Of a stretch of 64,000 nucleotides of DNA, positions 82 to 47,038 are shown piece by piece. The position numbers and the translations under genes were made by a program. The DNA lies in assembly GCF_945952365.1 (NCBI RefSeq), contig NZ_CAMFHX010000002.1, positions 1 through 64,000 on the forward strand, in the 5' to 3' direction. How positions within the stretch are numbered: the stretch's first letter is position 1; each line of letters opens with the position of its first letter. The notes below the pieces were generated by a model. That model was not told the DNA's origin and made no database searches. It saw only the letters and a list, made by a program, of their open reading frames with translations. Origin of the DNA: an uncultured Cetobacterium sp. (GTDB lineage: Bacteria; Fusobacteriota; Fusobacteriia; Fusobacteriales; Fusobacteriaceae).

Positions 82-3000
82 AACCAATTAAATTAGAAAT
101 TACTGGTCTGCAAAGCTTTTCTAAAAAACAAACAATAGATTTTAATGAGCTAACTTCTCTTGGTCTTTTTGGGATATTTGGAGAAACTGGAAGTGGAAAA
201 TCAACAATCTTAGATGCTATGATTTTTGCTATATTTGATGAAATACCGAGAACTATGGGAAGTAAGGGGAAAAATATCAGACCATGTTTAAACCAAGATA
301 GTCAAAACATCGAGGTTTATTTCAAATTCTCTTTAGGTGAAGATATATTTGAAATAGATAGATGCTATAAGAAAAAGTATAATAGAAAAGGTGAGGAAAA
401 ATTTGAGCAAAGCAATCCTATTTTAAAAATAAATGGTGATGTTATTGCAGATACAGTCACAAATGTTCAAAGTAAAATAAATGAGCACTTTGGAATAAGT
501 GTAAGTGATTTTACAAGATCAGTTGTTCTTCCTCAAGGAAAATTTAGTGAATTTTTGAAACTTAAAGGCTCTGATAAAATGAGTATGCTTGAAAATATAT
601 TTGATTTAGAAAAATATGGTACGAAGATGTCTGATAAGATAAGTGGTCGTTTAAATATTTTAAAAGAGAGTATTAACTCTCTCCAAAATCAGATTAAAGG
701 AAAGGGAGATTTCTCTTTAGAGCTTATAGATACTTTAAAATCTAATTTAGAGGTTAAAAATGTTGAACATATTAATTTAATTGATGAAAAAAAGAGTTTA
801 ACATCTGAATTTTTAGAATTGACCGAGGTAAAGAACCTTTTTCAAAAACTAGAGTTTTATAACTTTGAGATTTCAAAATTAGAAGAGATAAAAGAAAAAA
901 TAGCTCAAAATAAAGATAAAATTTCAAAACATGAAGTTGCAAGCTCATTGAAAAGTTTAATTGAAGAGTTAGAGTTACTTCAAAAAGATATTACTCAAAA
1001 TAGTTTTGATTTAAAAAATCTTGAAATAGATTTATCTAAAGAGAGTGAATCTTTAAATCTTGAAAAAATAAACGAGGCAACTCTTGAAAAAAATATAGAA
1101 AAAATAAACCAACAGCTTTTAGAGAAAAAGATAGATTACGATACTCTTGATTCTCTTAGAAAAGCCGTAGGATATCTTCAAACTATAAAATTAAAAGAAA
1201 ATCTTTTAAAAGAGGTTTTAGAATACAATAAGAGCATAGACGAAGAGATAAACTCATTTAAAGAGAGGTTTAAAAATTCTGAAGCTGAATTAGATACAAC
1301 GCAAAAAGAGTTAGATTCTTTAATCAAAATAGATCCTATTTTAATTTATACTTTTGAAAAAGAGATTTCAGATATTAAAACAACACTTCGAATTGAAAGT
1401 GAAAAGATTTTAAATAAATCCAATCTAGAAAAAGAGTTGGAGAAATATTTGGAAAATAAAAACTCTTTATTGGATGATTTCTCTAAAATAAATGAAGTAG
1501 TTTCAGAATTACAAAAGCAAACTCTTCAAAATCAAGCTTTTGAATTAGCTCAACATCTAAAGCATGGAGACAACTGCCCTGTTTGCGGCTCAAAAGAGCA
1601 TCCAACTTTAGCTCAAAGTACACATAGTATAGATATCTCAGTTCTTCAAGAAAATATAGATGAGAGAAACAACTTAGAGAAAAAATTGATAGCAATTGAT
1701 ACTAAAATAGAGTATACAACTAAGGCTATATTCAGTATTGAAGTTATTGAAAATATTGATTTGTTAGAAGAGAGTTTAATACAAAAAGAGATTGAACTGA
1801 AATCTCTAAAAGAAAAAGATAATGAGTTTTCTATAAAAGAGCGTAATATCTCTAAATCTTTAGCTACTTTAACTTCTATATTATCTAACTTAAAGGAAAA
1901 TATATCACATAGAGAAGAGATTTTAAAAAGTTCCCTAGATAAAGCTTCACTATATGAAAATGAAGTTTTGAAGGAGAAAGAGAGCCTATCTCATTTAAAC
2001 CTTTGTAATATACTTAATAATTCTTTAGAGATAACTTTAGATTCGGTTTTAAAAGAGAAGGAGATTTTAGAAAGTATGGATAAAGAGCATCGAGCTATGC
2101 TTTCTTCTAAAGAACTATCTGAAAAAGATTTAAAGCAGATAAGGAATAATATACTTTCGGTTTTAGATAAAGTTCAATCTATTAATTTAGAGATTGTTAC
2201 ATTGAAAGAGAAAATATCTAATTCTGAAAATAGTTTCCAAGAAAAAAATAAACATTTACATGAAATCTCACTCTCTAAAGGATTTAATTCAAAAGAGGAG
2301 ATTCTTTTATATCTTTTAAACGAAAGCCATTATCTATCTTTAAAAGATGGAATTTCAGAATTTGAAAATAATTATGTAAAATACAATCATCTAAAAGATG
2401 AATTACTTTCTGAAATTAACAATAGAGAGTTGAACTCTGAAAGATGGGAGAGTATTAACTTATCTTTAGAAGATTTAGCTAAAAAAGAGAGTTCTTTAGT
2501 TAAAGAGATTACAGAGTTAAATAGTGACTTAACTAGAATTGAGCTTTTAGCTGAAGAAGCTAAAGAGTTATTGAAAGAGATTGAAACGTTAACTTTAAAA
2601 CAAGATGATCTTTTACTTCTTCAAAAGAGATTCAAAGGAAGAAAATTTGTTAACTTCCTTGCTAGAAAACGTTTAGATTATATAACTTACGAAGCTTCAA
2701 AAAGATTACAAAAGATTACTATGGGAAGATACCTTTTAAAAGTTGATAACAATTGTGACTTTATAATAATAGATACTTTTAATAGTAACCACTCTAGAGA
2801 TTGTTCAACACTTTCTGGTGGAGAAACATTTATAGTCTCTCTTGTGTTAGCTTTAGCTTTATCTGGGCAATTGCAACTGAAGGGAAAAATCCAATTGGAG
2901 TTCTTCTTCTTAGATGAAGGGTTTGGAACGCTTGACAGTGTGCTTTTAGATAGAGTTATTGAAATACTTGAAGAGATTGGTTGGAAGGAAAAAATGAAAA

Positions 3001-42473: not shown

Positions 42474-43865
42474 TTAAAGATATAAATCTCTCTCTCCATT
42501 TTTTATTTTTTCTAATTTTTCTATTGTCAGCTTTTTTATATCATCTCTAACAATATTTTGAAGCTCTCTCTCTATAACCTCTTCAACCTTTTCTGTTAAC
42601 TCATCATCACCATAATCCATAGCATACTCCATTAAAGTTAGAAGTGCATTTGGTGAGCAGACATTTTGAATATTTCCACTTTTAGCTAGCTGCATGAACC
42701 TATCACCAGTTCTCCCCATTCTATAACAAGCTGTACAGTAACTTGGTATACAATCCTGCTCTAAAAGCTCTTTTAAAACCTCTAAAGGTGTTCTGTGGTC
42801 TGCTAATTCAAATTGAGTTCTAGTTTTTCCCTCTTCTCTATCTGTATACCCTCCAACATCAGCTGATGATCCTGCACTTATTTGTGAGATACCATATTTT
42901 ATAAGCTCTCTTCTAAGTTCAGCTGTTTCTCTAGTTGATAAAATCATTCCTGTAAAAGGTACAGCCAATCTTATAATGGCAACTATATTTCTAAAAGTAT
43001 CATCATCTATTTGATGAGGATACTCTTCTAAACTCATTCCCTCGGCTTTTTTGATTCTTGGAACAGAGATTGTATGGAACCCAACTCCATACTCTTTTTC
43101 TAAATACTCATTATGTAACATAAGTGCTATTATCTCATACTTATAATCTGCTAGTCCAAATAAAACTCCAGCTCCTACGTCATCTATTCCTGCTTCCATA
43201 GCTCTATTAAAAGCAGTCAAATGGTATTCATAATTTCCTTTTAAACTTTTAGGATGAACTCTTTCGTATGTTGGTTTGTGATAAGTCTCTTGGAAAAGAA
43301 TATACGTTCCAATCTCTGCATCTTTTAGTTTTTTGTAATTTTCTACTGTTGTTGCAGCTATATTGACATTTATTCTTCTAATTGACCCATTCTCAAACTT
43401 TGTACTGTAAACAGCATCTATTGCATCTAATGTATATTCGATTGGAACGTTTACAGGGTCCTCTCCTAGCTCTAAAGCGAGTCTTTTATGACCCATCTTT
43501 TCTAAAAGTCTAACTTCATTTTGAATCTGTTCTCTTGAAAGTTTTTTTCTTTCAAATTTATTGTCTCTTTTATACCCACAATAAGTACAGTTATTTACGC
43601 AGTAATCACTCACATAAAGCGGTGCAAAAACAACAATTCTATTTCCATAGATAGATTTTTTTAACTCTCCTGCAATTTCATAGAGTTCTCTTTTTTGCTT
43701 CTCATCTTTTATCTCTAAAAGTGAAGCCACCTCATCATGAGTTAATCCCTCTTTATTTTTTGCTTTATTTAAAACTCTTTCTATCTCTTCATAACTACTA
43801 TTTTTAGATTTTTTTAATAGATTTTCAATATACTCCTGATTTATAAAATTTATTTCCTTTTCCAT
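42474..43865 (-). CDS. hydG: [FeFe]-hydrogenase maturase HydG
   Basis: HydG is a radical SAM enzyme that splits tyrosine to make the CO and CN ligands of the H-cluster on an Fe(Cys) synthon. The 463-residue protein has the radical SAM cluster motif CVNNCTYCGY near residue 91, and a C-terminal second-cluster region (CTACYRMGRTGDRF near residue 381, then a further Cys in VCSPNALL). Its start overlaps the end of hydE by 16 nt, so the pair is coupled. Confidence 0.95.
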   Translation of the reverse strand: MEKEINFINQEYIENLLKKSKNSSYEEIERVLNKAKNKEGLTHDEVASLLEIKDEKQKRELYEIAGELKKSIYGNRIVVFAPLYVSDYCVNNCTYCGYKRDNKFERKKLSREQIQNEVRLLEKMGHKRLALELGEDPVNVPIEYTLDAIDAVYSTKFENGSIRRINVNIAATTVENYKKLKDAEIGTYILFQETYHKPTYERVHPKSLKGNYEYHLTAFNRAMEAGIDDVGAGVLFGLADYKYEIIALMLHNEYLEKEYGVGFHTISVPRIKKAEGMSLEEYPHQIDDDTFRNIVAIIRLAVPFTGMILSTRETAELRRELIKYGISQISAGSSADVGGYTDREEGKTRTQFELADHRTPLEVLKELLEQDCIPSYCTACYRMGRTGDRFMQLAKSGNIQNVCSPNALLTLMEYAMDYGDDELTEKVEEVIERELQNIVRDDIKKLTIEKLEKIKNGERDLYL

Positions 43866-44896
43866 CTGATATTATCTCCTCTTGTTAGTATTGGTTCAAA
43901 TCCTGCTTCTATAACTCCATTTTCTATTTTTAGCTTCTCCTCTGCTGATTCCTTTCCAGAAAAAACTTTTCCATTATAAAGAGCGTATTTTTTTCTGTAT
44001 TCCATCGGAGATAAATTTGGCATAATAACATTTGCTCCAGCTTTAAATCCCTTTTCTCGTCCTTTAGGATCAATTGTTCCTAAAGCTGTTGTTGCTGGTA
44101 ATAATACATCTGGTAGCAGTAATCTTATTATTGCTAAAAGTGTAATTGTATCATATGCAGTTCCACCCTTTTCACCCTTTAAAGGCGTGTCTTCATGTGG
44201 TATAAAAGGTCCAATCCCTACCATGTGAGGTTTTAGCTCTTTTAGGAAAACTAAATCCTTTGCATAATCTTTCATTTTCAAACCAGGTAATCCTATTAAA
44301 AATCCACTTCCTACTTGATAGCCAATCTCTTTAAGAGTTCTCAAGCATTTTTTTCTATTCTCTAAAGACATCTTTGGATGTAAGCTCTCGTAAAGTTTTT
44401 CATTCACAGTTTCATGTCTTAAAAGATATCTATCAGCTCCAGCTTCATAAAGTCTTCTAAAAGATTTTTCGCCTCTCTCTCCTAAAGAAAGAGTAATAGC
44501 TATATCAGAATATTCTTTTTTTAGAGTTTTTATTATCTCTTCTAAAAGTTCATCGGTAAAGTAACTATCCTCTCCTCCTTGAAAAACAAAAGTTCTATAT
44601 CCTAACAAATATCCTCTGTGACAAGAGTCTAATATCTCATCTTTAGATAATCTATATCTACTAGCTTTGCAGTTAGATGCCCTAATCCCACAGTAAAAAC
44701 AATCACATTTACAAATATTAGATATCTCTATCAATCCTCTAAAAAAAACTGTCTTACCATAATTTTTCTGTCTAACTTCGTAAGCTTTATCTATTAGATA
44801 GTCTCTATTCTCCTCATTCAAATTGCAAAGTAACTCCTCTAACTCAAATTGAGTTAAGTCATTATTCTTATACAATTTATCTATTAAATACCTCAT
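43850..44896 (-). CDS. hydE: [FeFe]-hydrogenase maturase HydE
   Basis: HydE is a radical SAM enzyme of the H-cluster assembly pathway that acts on the HydG product. The 348-residue protein has the radical SAM cluster motif CKCDCFYCGIR near residue 62, followed by FQGGEDSYFTDE near 102 and GSGFLIGLPG near 196 as expected for the SAM-binding barrel. It begins 91 nt after asnA. No clear terminator was seen in that gap, so it may be partly transcribed from the asnA promoter; a TATAAT box lies there without a good -35. Confidence 0.94.
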   Translation of the reverse strand: MRYLIDKLYKNNDLTQFELEELLCNLNEENRDYLIDKAYEVRQKNYGKTVFFRGLIEISNICKCDCFYCGIRASNCKASRYRLSKDEILDSCHRGYLLGYRTFVFQGGEDSYFTDELLEEIIKTLKKEYSDIAITLSLGERGEKSFRRLYEAGADRYLLRHETVNEKLYESLHPKMSLENRKKCLRTLKEIGYQVGSGFLIGLPGLKMKDYAKDLVFLKELKPHMVGIGPFIPHEDTPLKGEKGGTAYDTITLLAIIRLLLPDVLLPATTALGTIDPKGREKGFKAGANVIMPNLSPMEYRKKYALYNGKVFSGKESAEEKLKIENGVIEAGFEPILTRGDNIRWKRK

Positions 44897-44987
44897 CTCC
44901 CACCTCCAAAAGTATATAACAAATTTAATTATATACCTTTTTGCTCCAGAAATGAAGTTATATTTTAGGTTTTTATACTCTCTATTT

Positions 44988-45968
44988 CTATAGCAATGGA
45001 ATATCTTTTGCTCTACACTCTTCTAAAACTTGCTCTGGCCATAAAGATGCTTGAACCTCTCCTATATGAAGTTTGTCTAAGAAGAATAAGCAAAGTCTCG
45101 ATTGCCCTATTCCTCCACCTATTGTATAAGGTAACTCTCCTGCTAGCAATTTTTTATGGAAATCTAAAGTTTTTCTATCCTCTGCTCCTGCAATCTCTAA
45201 CTGCTTAGCTAAAGATTCCTCAGATACACGAATCCCCATCGAAGACAGTTCTAATCCTATTTTTAAAGGTTCGTAGTAAACGATTATATCTCCGTTTAAA
45301 TCCCAATCATCATAATCAGGTGCTCTTCCATCATGCTTTTCTCCTGAAGCTAAAACTTTTCCTATTTGACTTATAAATATAGCTCCATGCTTCTCTGCAT
45401 GTTTGTGTTCTCTCTCCTTTGAAGACAGTTCTGGGTAAAGAGTTTCTAACTCTTGAGAAGTTACAAATGAAATCTCATCAGGTAATTTTTTTGATAATTG
45501 AGGATAAGCCTCTCTTATATGATTCTCTGTATCCTTTAAAGATGTATATATTTTTTTTACAGTTTCATGTAATTTATCTGTTGTTCTATCTGATTTATCC
45601 AAAACTTTTTCCCAATCCCATTGATCAACATAGTATGAGTGTATTGGACTCAAGTCTTCATCTCTTCTTATAGCGTTCATATCTGTATAAAGACCTTTTC
45701 CAGAGTTAAATCCATATTTATGAAGTGCCATTCTTTTCCACTTTGCTAACGAATGAACAATCACAGCATCCTGTTTACATTTGGTATCAAAAGATACAGC
45801 TCTTTCAACTCCATTTAGATCATCATTTAACCCACTTTCTGGTGTCACAAATAGTGGTGCTGAAACTCTTGTTAAATCCAATTTTTTAGCTAAATCTCTT
45901 TCGAAGAAATCCTTTACTTTTTTAATTGCTACCTCTGTTTCTATAATATCTAATTTTGCTTTATACAT
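44988..45968 (-). CDS. asnA: Aspartate-ammonia ligase (ammonia-dependent asparagine synthetase)
   Basis: AsnA makes asparagine from aspartate, ammonia and ATP in the cytoplasm. The 326-residue protein matches the family throughout, with LTRVSAPLFVTPESGLNDDLNG near residue 36 (shown only in part: the ligand-binding SGLNDDL), GLYTDMNAIRRDED near 97, and the terminal GGGIGQSRLCLFFL near 289, like class II tRNA-synthetase motif 3. The frame extends to 45983, but that codon is part of the GGAGG site used by the ATG at 45968. A poly-asparagine leader and terminator lie upstream, which predicts control by charged tRNA-Asn. Confidence 0.96.
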   Translation of the reverse strand: MYKAKLDIIETEVAIKKVKDFFERDLAKKLDLTRVSAPLFVTPESGLNDDLNGVERAVSFDTKCKQDAVIVHSLAKWKRMALHKYGFNSGKGLYTDMNAIRRDEDLSPIHSYYVDQWDWEKVLDKSDRTTDKLHETVKKIYTSLKDTENHIREAYPQLSKKLPDEISFVTSQELETLYPELSSKEREHKHAEKHGAIFISQIGKVLASGEKHDGRAPDYDDWDLNGDIIVYYEPLKIGLELSSMGIRVSEESLAKQLEIAGAEDRKTLDFHKKLLAGELPYTIGGGIGQSRLCLFFLDKLHIGEVQASLWPEQVLEECRAKDIPLL

Positions 45969-45994
45969 ATACTCTACCTCCATATTTTTTATAA

Positions 45995-46043
45995 AATAAA
46001 AAAGCTCTTAACACTTCCATAAACGGAAATAGTTAAGAGCTTT
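45995..46043 (-). terminator. Attenuator terminator upstream of asnA
   Basis: On the minus strand AAAGCTCTTAAC (46043-46032) pairs perfectly with GTTAAGAGCTTT (46012-46001); TTTCC and GGAAG-like bases pair inside. The tail reads TTTATTTTAT. It lies 54 nt after the leader peptide stop and 30 nt before the asnA ATG. Confidence 0.88.
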
Positions 46044-46097
46044 AATCTAACAAAATATAATATACCTATTTTTAGATATACTTATACTAATTTATTT

Positions 46098-46244
46098 TCA
46101 GTTAAATTTAAATTCTTTCTTATTTTCAGGATAATGGAAATTACACAATACAAATTTCAATAGATTATTATTATTGTTGTTATTATTATTATTATTCATA
46201 TTATTAACACAATTATAATTATTATTATTGAAATTTATAAACAT
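46098..46244 (-). CDS. Poly-asparagine leader peptide of asnA
   Basis: A 48-codon frame starts with ATG 6 nt after a perfect GGAGG site and ends with TGA before the attenuator. Twenty-two codons are Asn, including eleven in a row (codons 17-27; AAT with two AAC) and four at codons 6-9. It is preceded by its own promoter and followed by asnA. In the classical leader-peptide mechanism, ribosomes stalling at Asn codons when charged tRNA-Asn is low would prevent terminator formation and switch asnA on. Between stop and terminator the mRNA can form alternative small hairpins (TTAGTATA with TATATCTAA, or ATCTAA with TTAGAT). It is too short to be found by routine gene callers. Confidence 0.85.
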   Translation of the reverse strand: MFINFNNNNYNCVNNMNNNNNNNNNNNLLKFVLCNFHYPENKKEFKFN

Positions 46245-46284
46245 AACTTCCTCCTTTTTAAAAATTTATTTTTACTATGGGGTA

Positions 46285-46313
46285 ATAATAAAACTTTTTT
46301 ATATAAAAGTCAA
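46285..46313 (-). promoter_or_regulatory. Promoter of the asnA leader
   Basis: TTGACT (46313-46308) and TATTAT (46290-46285) are 17 nt apart on the minus strand, predicting a start about 35 nt before the leader ATG. The -35 box lies just past the stop of the upstream phosphatase gene. Confidence 0.75.
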
Positions 46314-46321
46314 GATTTTTT

Positions 46322-47038
46322 TTATAAAATCTCTACATCAGATGAAATTTTATAAATTACATCCTTTCTTTCAACAAAAATTTCTGTCTTATCTCTCAGA
46401 TGTTCCTCTGTTTTTATTTTTAGCAGTAACTCTCTTGAAGGATTGATAGCTCTAGGGTTTCCAACTAAAGTTAGCATGCTGTAATCTCCATTTGTATCTC
46501 CATATGCATAGCTTTCATTTAAATCTATATCATATTTTTCACAGAAATTATTTATTGCTTTCATTTTATTTTTTGAATCCCACATTGGCGAAATATCTCC
46601 AGATAACTTTCCATCTTCATAGTGATATATAGAACCACAATAATCATCAGCACCCCATTTTTTAGCCATTCTAGAAACTAAAAAATCTGGACTTCCAGAA
46701 ATAAATATAACTTTATGCCCTTGCTCTTTATGCCATTTGATCATATCTCTTGTAAATTTATAAACTCTGTTTCCTTTAAGCTCTAAAACTTGATCTGAAA
46801 TAAAATCATTATATTGCAGCGATAACCCTTTTATAGCTTCAACATATGTTGTTGTTATATCTTCTAGGTATTTATCATAATCTCCTACTCTTTCATCCCA
46901 CTCTTTAAAAGCATCCTTTACTTTTAGCTCATACTCTCTAATATCTAAAAGTTCGTATTTTATAAGCTTTTTAAAATGCTCTGTCAATAATGAATTTCTA
47001 TAAATTGTTCCATCAATATCAAAAAATGCTGCCTTCAT
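46322..47038 (-). CDS. HAD-IB phosphatase (SerB-like)
   Basis: This 238-residue cytoplasmic HAD enzyme belongs to subfamily IB, which includes phosphoserine phosphatase and related enzymes. Motif I is FFDIDGTIYRN near residue 5, motif II is FISGSPDFL near residue 112, and motif III/IV is YAYGDTNGDYSML near residue 177. The alpha-helical cap is about residues 20-85. The substrate may be phosphoserine or another small phosphomonoester. A CAGGAGG site precedes the start. It follows the nucleoside phosphorylase gene by 23 nt. Confidence 0.82.
   Translation of the reverse strand: MKAAFFDIDGTIYRNSLLTEHFKKLIKYELLDIREYELKVKDAFKEWDERVGDYDKYLEDITTTYVEAIKGLSLQYNDFISDQVLELKGNRVYKFTRDMIKWHKEQGHKVIFISGSPDFLVSRMAKKWGADDYCGSIYHYEDGKLSGDISPMWDSKNKMKAINNFCEKYDIDLNESYAYGDTNGDYSMLTLVGNPRAINPSRELLLKIKTEEHLRDKTEIFVERKDVIYKISSDVEIL

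Follow-up and report, generated by a model that had tools for sequence, protein, structure and literature searches.

Attenuators are listed for trp, his, leu, thr, ilv and pheA (PMC1183508), and in 2010 leader-peptide systems were unshown outside the Proteobacteria and Actinobacteria before the firmicute example presented in the respective paper (PMC2965389). In the trp and his attenuators, the biosynthetic gene is preceded by a terminator and by a short translated leader in which the regulated amino acid is abundant, and mutually exclusive pairings are set in such a way that a waiting ribosome favours read-through. A comparable candidate leader with cognate codons, ribosome stalling and read-through is uORFC-8-2 of the Rhodobacterales, which is, however, concerned with cysteine and located in front of the aminoacyl-tRNA synthetase gene cysS of alphaproteobacteria (PMC8632094).

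The region upstream of the aspartate–ammonia ligase gene asnA in an uncultured Cetobacterium sp. shares the features of the trp and his attenuators, the pairings as predicted by folding, while it differs from trp and his in its specificity for asparagine, the gene asnA and the host family Fusobacteriaceae. As judged from sequence comparison and RNA folding, it very probably functions as a ribosome-mediated transcription attenuator sensing charged tRNA-Asn, an Asn-specific example of an already known mechanism class. Conservation of a leader does not by itself prove the mechanism, since mutation of the conserved Leu codons of an actinobacterial leader is reported to have left regulation unchanged (PMC1262725).

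The leader region of asnA in Cetobacterium

A preliminary description of the window, the whole stretch of 64,000 nucleotides that was analysed, had listed a promoter, a ribosome site, a frame of 48 codons of which 22 are for Asn (11 consecutive), a terminator and asnA, all on the minus strand, and each of these elements is confirmed (Table 1). Thus, a short open reading frame with its own ribosome site, a cluster of Asn codons and a terminator between leader and asnA are present in a 353-bp intergenic gap, with a HAD-family phosphatase gene (stop 46322) on the other side of the leader from asnA.

Table 1. Features of the asnA leader region in window coordinates
Feature	Position	Strand	Remark
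Promoter TTGACT-17-TATTAT	46285..46313	(-)	10/12 consensus positions
Leader Shine–Dalgarno sequence (SD) AAGGAGG	46250..46256	(-)	3' part doubles as segment 1 of the no-translation hairpin
Leader ORF, 48 aa, 22 Asn	46098..46244	(-)	ATG 46244, stop TGA 46100-46098
Regulatory Asn block, codons 6-27	46164..46229	(-)	
Segment 1: GGAAGTTAT + ATAAATTTCAATA	46226..46251	(-)	predicted to pair with 46144-46136 and 46162-46150
Segment 2, predicted antiterminator arm, final third of leader frame	46101..46142	(-)	
Covarying hairpin GTATATC...GGTATAT, separating segments 2 and 3	46054..46088	(-)	
Segment 3: GTTAGATT + terminator rising arm and upper falling arm	46013..46051	(-)	predicted to pair with segment 2
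Intrinsic terminator (12 + 6 bp) + U tract	45996..46043	(-)	covariation and fold
asnA, aspartate–ammonia ligase	44988..45968	(-)	TIGR00669 (AsnA) 341.5 bits (cut-off 292.8); SD GGAGG just 5' of ATG 45968

The leader peptide reads MFINFNNNNYNCVNNMNNNNNNNNNNNLLKFVLCNFHYPENKKEFKFN, with the uninterrupted Asn run at codons 17-27. Twelve successive codons of the leader include 11 Asn, whereas 5,000 dinucleotide shuffles of the gap never gave more than 6, whether or not a ribosome site was demanded, and a run of seven AAY codons is found a single time in the 2.5-Mb genome, in the asnA leader. Compared with trp and his, this leader is long (48 codons, 22 of them regulatory) and has its own SD inside the predicted no-translation hairpin. 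A promoter-like TTGAC...TATTAT/TATAAT sequence is also found upstream of the leaders of relatives.

The terminator hairpin (46043-46001) consists of 12 bp, one unpaired base, 6 bp and a loop of 6, followed by the U tract; its energy of -22.2 kcal/mol (z -7.4) is reached by none of 200 shuffles. It had been overlooked by a simple terminator scan because the stem carries a bulge. A longer asnA reading frame starting at 45983 was rejected in favour of the ATG behind GGAGG.

On the 3' side of asnA lie hydE and hydG, encoding [FeFe] hydrogenase maturases (asnA to hydG, 42474-45968, minus strand), a gene order common to Cetobacterium and locus L094. The three genes are possibly co-transcribed, in which case the attenuator might extend control to hydrogenase maturation.

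The predicted switch of Cetobacterium

We infer that ribosome stalling, the sequence of steps and the asparagine response would be as follows. Transcription from the promoter would produce a leader RNA, and a ribosome following the polymerase would translate its small frame. With plentiful Asn-tRNA the ribosome would traverse the Asn block and the final third of the frame and thereby keep segment 2 open, so that the terminator would halt transcription ahead of asnA. With scarce Asn-tRNA the ribosome would wait within codons 6-27, and the free segment 2 would pair with segment 3 before the terminator falling arm exists, leading to read-through into asnA. Since segment 2 starts 21 nt past the Asn codon that closes the block, it would, given the usual ribosome footprint, be free with the ribosome at any of these codons. 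If no ribosome is present, segment 2 would pair with the leader SD and the first codons, upon which the terminator would form and re-initiation on the leader would be hard. The Cetobacterium genome encodes an asparaginyl-tRNA synthetase (AsnRS, 640 bits); charging of tRNA-Asn therefore depends on free asparagine, which AsnA makes, and an increase of asnA expression at low Asn-tRNA is the expected homeostatic direction.

The antiterminator, left unsettled in the preliminary description, could be placed by folding and alignment as the pairing of segments 2 and 3 around the covarying hairpin. With the terminator falling arm withheld, RNA folding predicts the same long 2:3 pairing in all ten Cetobacterium sequences, with 27-37 inter-segment pairs versus 12-18 after shuffling of segment 2 and with energy p values from 0.003 to 0.08, of which the window sequence has the weakest (0.08, marginal). 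Loci L088-L091 build the pairing with more mismatches. On the alignment, 89.4% of the cells are paired compared with 36-48% when the segments are slid against each other, and two-sided changes are seen in 8 pairs and 15 cells versus 4.3 and 6.0 in shuffles, whereby the shuffle numbers overstate the significance as the species are related. The pairing is visible in single-sequence folds and in an alignment of six sequences, in both cases only with the falling arm withheld; simple conserved-helix enumeration and RNAalifold, when run on all ten sequences of Cetobacterium, failed to reveal it, since the terminator or the inner stem of the terminator prevails there. A pairing confined to TTTCC of the leader and the terminator loop was discarded as a candidate antiterminator, as the lower 12-bp stem would stay intact.

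The Cetobacterium terminator, on the other side of the switch, is 96.7% paired with two-sided changes in 4 pairs and 13 cells, which provides the covariation expected in the preliminary description. Folding of the full-length RNA gives the terminator a higher stability than the antiterminator; the switch therefore depends on the order of folding, which is also a trait of known attenuators. Prediction and comparison point to a mutually exclusive antiterminator that a waiting ribosome would leave free. Folding also suggests that in the Cetobacterium type the terminator would be favoured without translation by superattenuation through a 1:2 hairpin (-31.7 kcal/mol, z -5.1), in which the segment 2 region, together with the LLKF codons, is predicted to pair with the leader SD and codons 3-7.

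Conservation, a second layout and alternative explanations

The asnA loci were collected from GTDB genomes and from all available Fusobacteriales genomes, 61 of which belong to the Fusobacteriaceae, and 47 of these 61 possess asnA. An Asn-rich leader with SD is located 5' of asnA in 33 of the 47, distributed over seven genera, which carry the labels of the tool used (g1-g27, where g1 is Cetobacterium, with the same loci under that name): 11/11 Cetobacterium, 1/2 g2, 6/12 g4, 7/7 g5, 1/3 g11, 1/1 g13 and 6/6 g14. Of the 33 leader genomes one, among the eleven of Cetobacterium, is cut by a contig end, one is without attenuator and one has extra DNA before asnA. The frame and ribosome site are therewith kept in all asnA-bearing Cetobacterium and in further genera, third-position AAT/AAC changes occur together with in-frame length changes, as had been anticipated, and loss in close relatives, named beforehand as refuting, is not seen within Cetobacterium, while across the asnA-bearing Fusobacteriaceae the leader is absent in 14 of 47. 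In those leaderless fusobacterial loci that were inspected the entire attenuator is missing and not just the frame; in the 14 loci asnA directly follows a promoter or the preceding gene. Among 28 asnA loci of Leptotrichiaceae no Asn leader was found.

Beyond the Asn run, which varies in length from about 4 to 12, the peptides display little conservation (MFINFNNNNYNCVNNMNNN... in Cetobacterium, MKKYIISAIINNNNNNGNMSGFELT in g5, MKTLIFGITAQFNNNNNMSRFGL in g4 and MFKLIITSNNNNNNNNMRGFVYR in g14); within Cetobacterium, Cys, Tyr and Phe residues flanking the Asn block are conserved as well. The Asn blocks contain 250 AAT, 29 AAC, one AAA and no AAG codons, and with 279 AAT/AAC versus a single AAA it is therefore asparagine itself that is kept rather than an AAT repeat. 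When 96 genomes were scanned for an SD followed by ATG and five AAY codons, most of those with a leader gave matches at asnA leaders; besides these, the in-frame Asn runs noted are only the leader of an amtB gene described below and the N-terminus of a 178-aa protein in genome G051, which was rejected as a leader.

Several loci deviate in detail. Locus L197 (G017:C8) has leader and attenuator intact with approximately 0.7 kb of extra, partly masked DNA before asnA. In L129 (G055:C38) the leader is shrunk to MFKLITIFNNNNNT directly 5' of asnA without attenuator, which is either a deletion or an assembly gap, the genome being 62% complete. The g5 genomes G030 and G033 harbour two asnA copies each (L110, L112, L113 and L119), every copy with its own Asn leader and attenuator, and one asnA copy (G030:C16) is reported with an internal TGA. 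A frame MKKIYIIII... with an Ile run behind an SD (L198, G056:C161:7591-7632) is perhaps an Ile-type leader or the start of a membrane protein.

While the Cetobacterium layout resembles trp (1:2, 2:3 and terminator), the leader-bearing genomes of g4 and g5, which we infer to be Fusobacterium-type, possess a five-segment chain that resembles his. Segment 1 (GGATTTG) is located right behind the Asn run and is followed by segment 2 (CAAATCC), segment 3 (GATTTGTACCCGA), segment 4, which is the terminator rising arm with TCGGGTAC, and segment 5. Pairing of 1:2 and 3:4 would lead to read-through, pairing of 2:3 and 4:5 to termination. The terminator covaries, and the 3:4 helix is paired in 93% of the cells with little two-sided covariation; the corresponding helix in g13 is TTAGCCCA:TGGGTTAA. 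In folds of the stalled state, the terminator rising arm is occupied in 14 of 14 Fusobacterium-type loci. When the RNA is begun past the stop codon, the arm is free (at most 2 nt blocked) in eight of the 14, and in the other six the released-state fold still pairs part of it. As one leader type is combined with two layouts, the RNA part seems to have been rebuilt while the Asn-leader sensor stayed; alternatively, the two layouts may be of independent origin.

Control of asnA translation or mRNA stability by the leader ribosome, instead of control of transcription, would have as its working part the hairpin hiding the leader SD or a TTTCC stretch facing the asnA SD. The strength of this hairpin (z -5.1) and a leader segment ATTTCC able to pair with both SDs speak for it, and yet we consider it unlikely, as a covarying terminator with U tract lies between leader and asnA in Cetobacterium and in the Fusobacterium-type, a conserved alternative pairing attacks this terminator, and the pairing with the asnA SD is short. 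Somewhat less likely still is that the ribosome is stalled by the nascent Asn-rich peptide, or by another signal such as ammonia or aspartate, and that tRNA charging is not the signal. This would fit the unusual run of 11 Asn and the Cys, Tyr and Phe kept in Cetobacterium, whereas the variable run length and flanks that are wholly different between genera are ill-suited to a specific arrest peptide, and the TGT codon of the kept Cys is paired with AAC codons in the predicted RNA hairpin.

The same lack of conservation between genera beyond the Asn run makes it very improbable that the small protein itself is the product and acts in trans; the frame has its own promoter and SD, but the leader is always located in cis to asnA or, once, to amtB. 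Finally, AAT repeats expand easily in a genome so rich in A+T, and the frame might be a functionless microsatellite that is open by chance. We give this reading hardly any weight, as the run is the sole one in 2.5 Mb, the codon usage is heavily skewed (279 AAY versus 1 AAR), and in seven genera the run has the same position, in frame, with an SD on its 5' side and a terminator on its 3' side; this conservation already refutes it.

Asparagine leaders, T-boxes and amtB-glnK

In the window, neither the T-box (RF00230) nor any other Rfam family, including amino-acid leaders and riboswitches, matches at gathering score, and the best sub-threshold matches at 45950-46330 have E values of at least 3.5. 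An Rfam search likewise detected no T-box in 13 leaderless fusobacterial asnA loci, and none was found in the two Fusobacteria/Thermotogae genomes of a previous survey (PMC2494555). Clostridial asnA, on the other hand, is preceded by a T-box at gathering score in five of 16 loci tested (L010, L022, L055, L060 and L062). This T-box is associated with the same gene, presumably responds to the same signal, tRNA-Asn charging, and also acts on a terminator; unlike the Asn leader, it binds uncharged tRNA directly without translation. Among the clostridial asnA loci within the best 80, no Asn-rich leader was found 5' of asnA; weak Asn-rich frames in some clostridial MAGs (L032 and L047) look like A+T richness only, without attenuator, and were rejected.

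In one genome of the Leptotrichiaceae (G089, locus L196), an Asn leader, MTIYKINKFDNNNNNNNYTRLGVF, at 566-634 (+) precedes amtB-glnK at 771-2395, where amtB (TIGR00836, 391 bits) is followed by a P-II gene. The attenuator comprises five segments of the second-layout type with 3:4 being CTTGTATC:GATATAAG, a pairing that was read by eye while the minimum-energy fold favours 2:3. The relative G087 (L195) has kept leader and attenuator with only the tail of a P-II gene behind them and no amt gene in the genome; besides G089, no amt gene of the order carries an Asn leader.

With respect to novelty, an Asn-specific leader of this kind is not known to have been described, and a search among openly licensed papers found no Asn leader, asnA attenuation or Fusobacterium leader peptide. 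To our knowledge, and with respect to the openly licensed literature, this would be the first asparagine-specific leader peptide and the first classical attenuator in Fusobacteriota. According to theory, the sensitivity of an attenuator is determined by how many regulatory codons it has and what fraction they make up (PMC1183508), and the natural series of about 4 to 12 Asn codons is usable for testing this relationship. Asparagine is common in A+T-rich genomes, where long runs may be needed.

The gene asnA would be under the control of two sensors of the same signal, a T-box in the case of Clostridia and, in Fusobacteriaceae, a leader that is translated. More tentatively, and with somewhat less than even confidence, we propose that Asn-leader attenuation constitutes a separate regulatory class of Fusobacteriota where Clostridia use the T-box, that its attenuator was rebuilt two or more times, with unrelated layouts beneath one kind of leader, and that it extends beyond asnA to ammonium uptake (amtB-glnK), such that the charging of Asn-tRNA may serve as a nitrogen signal in these bacteria.
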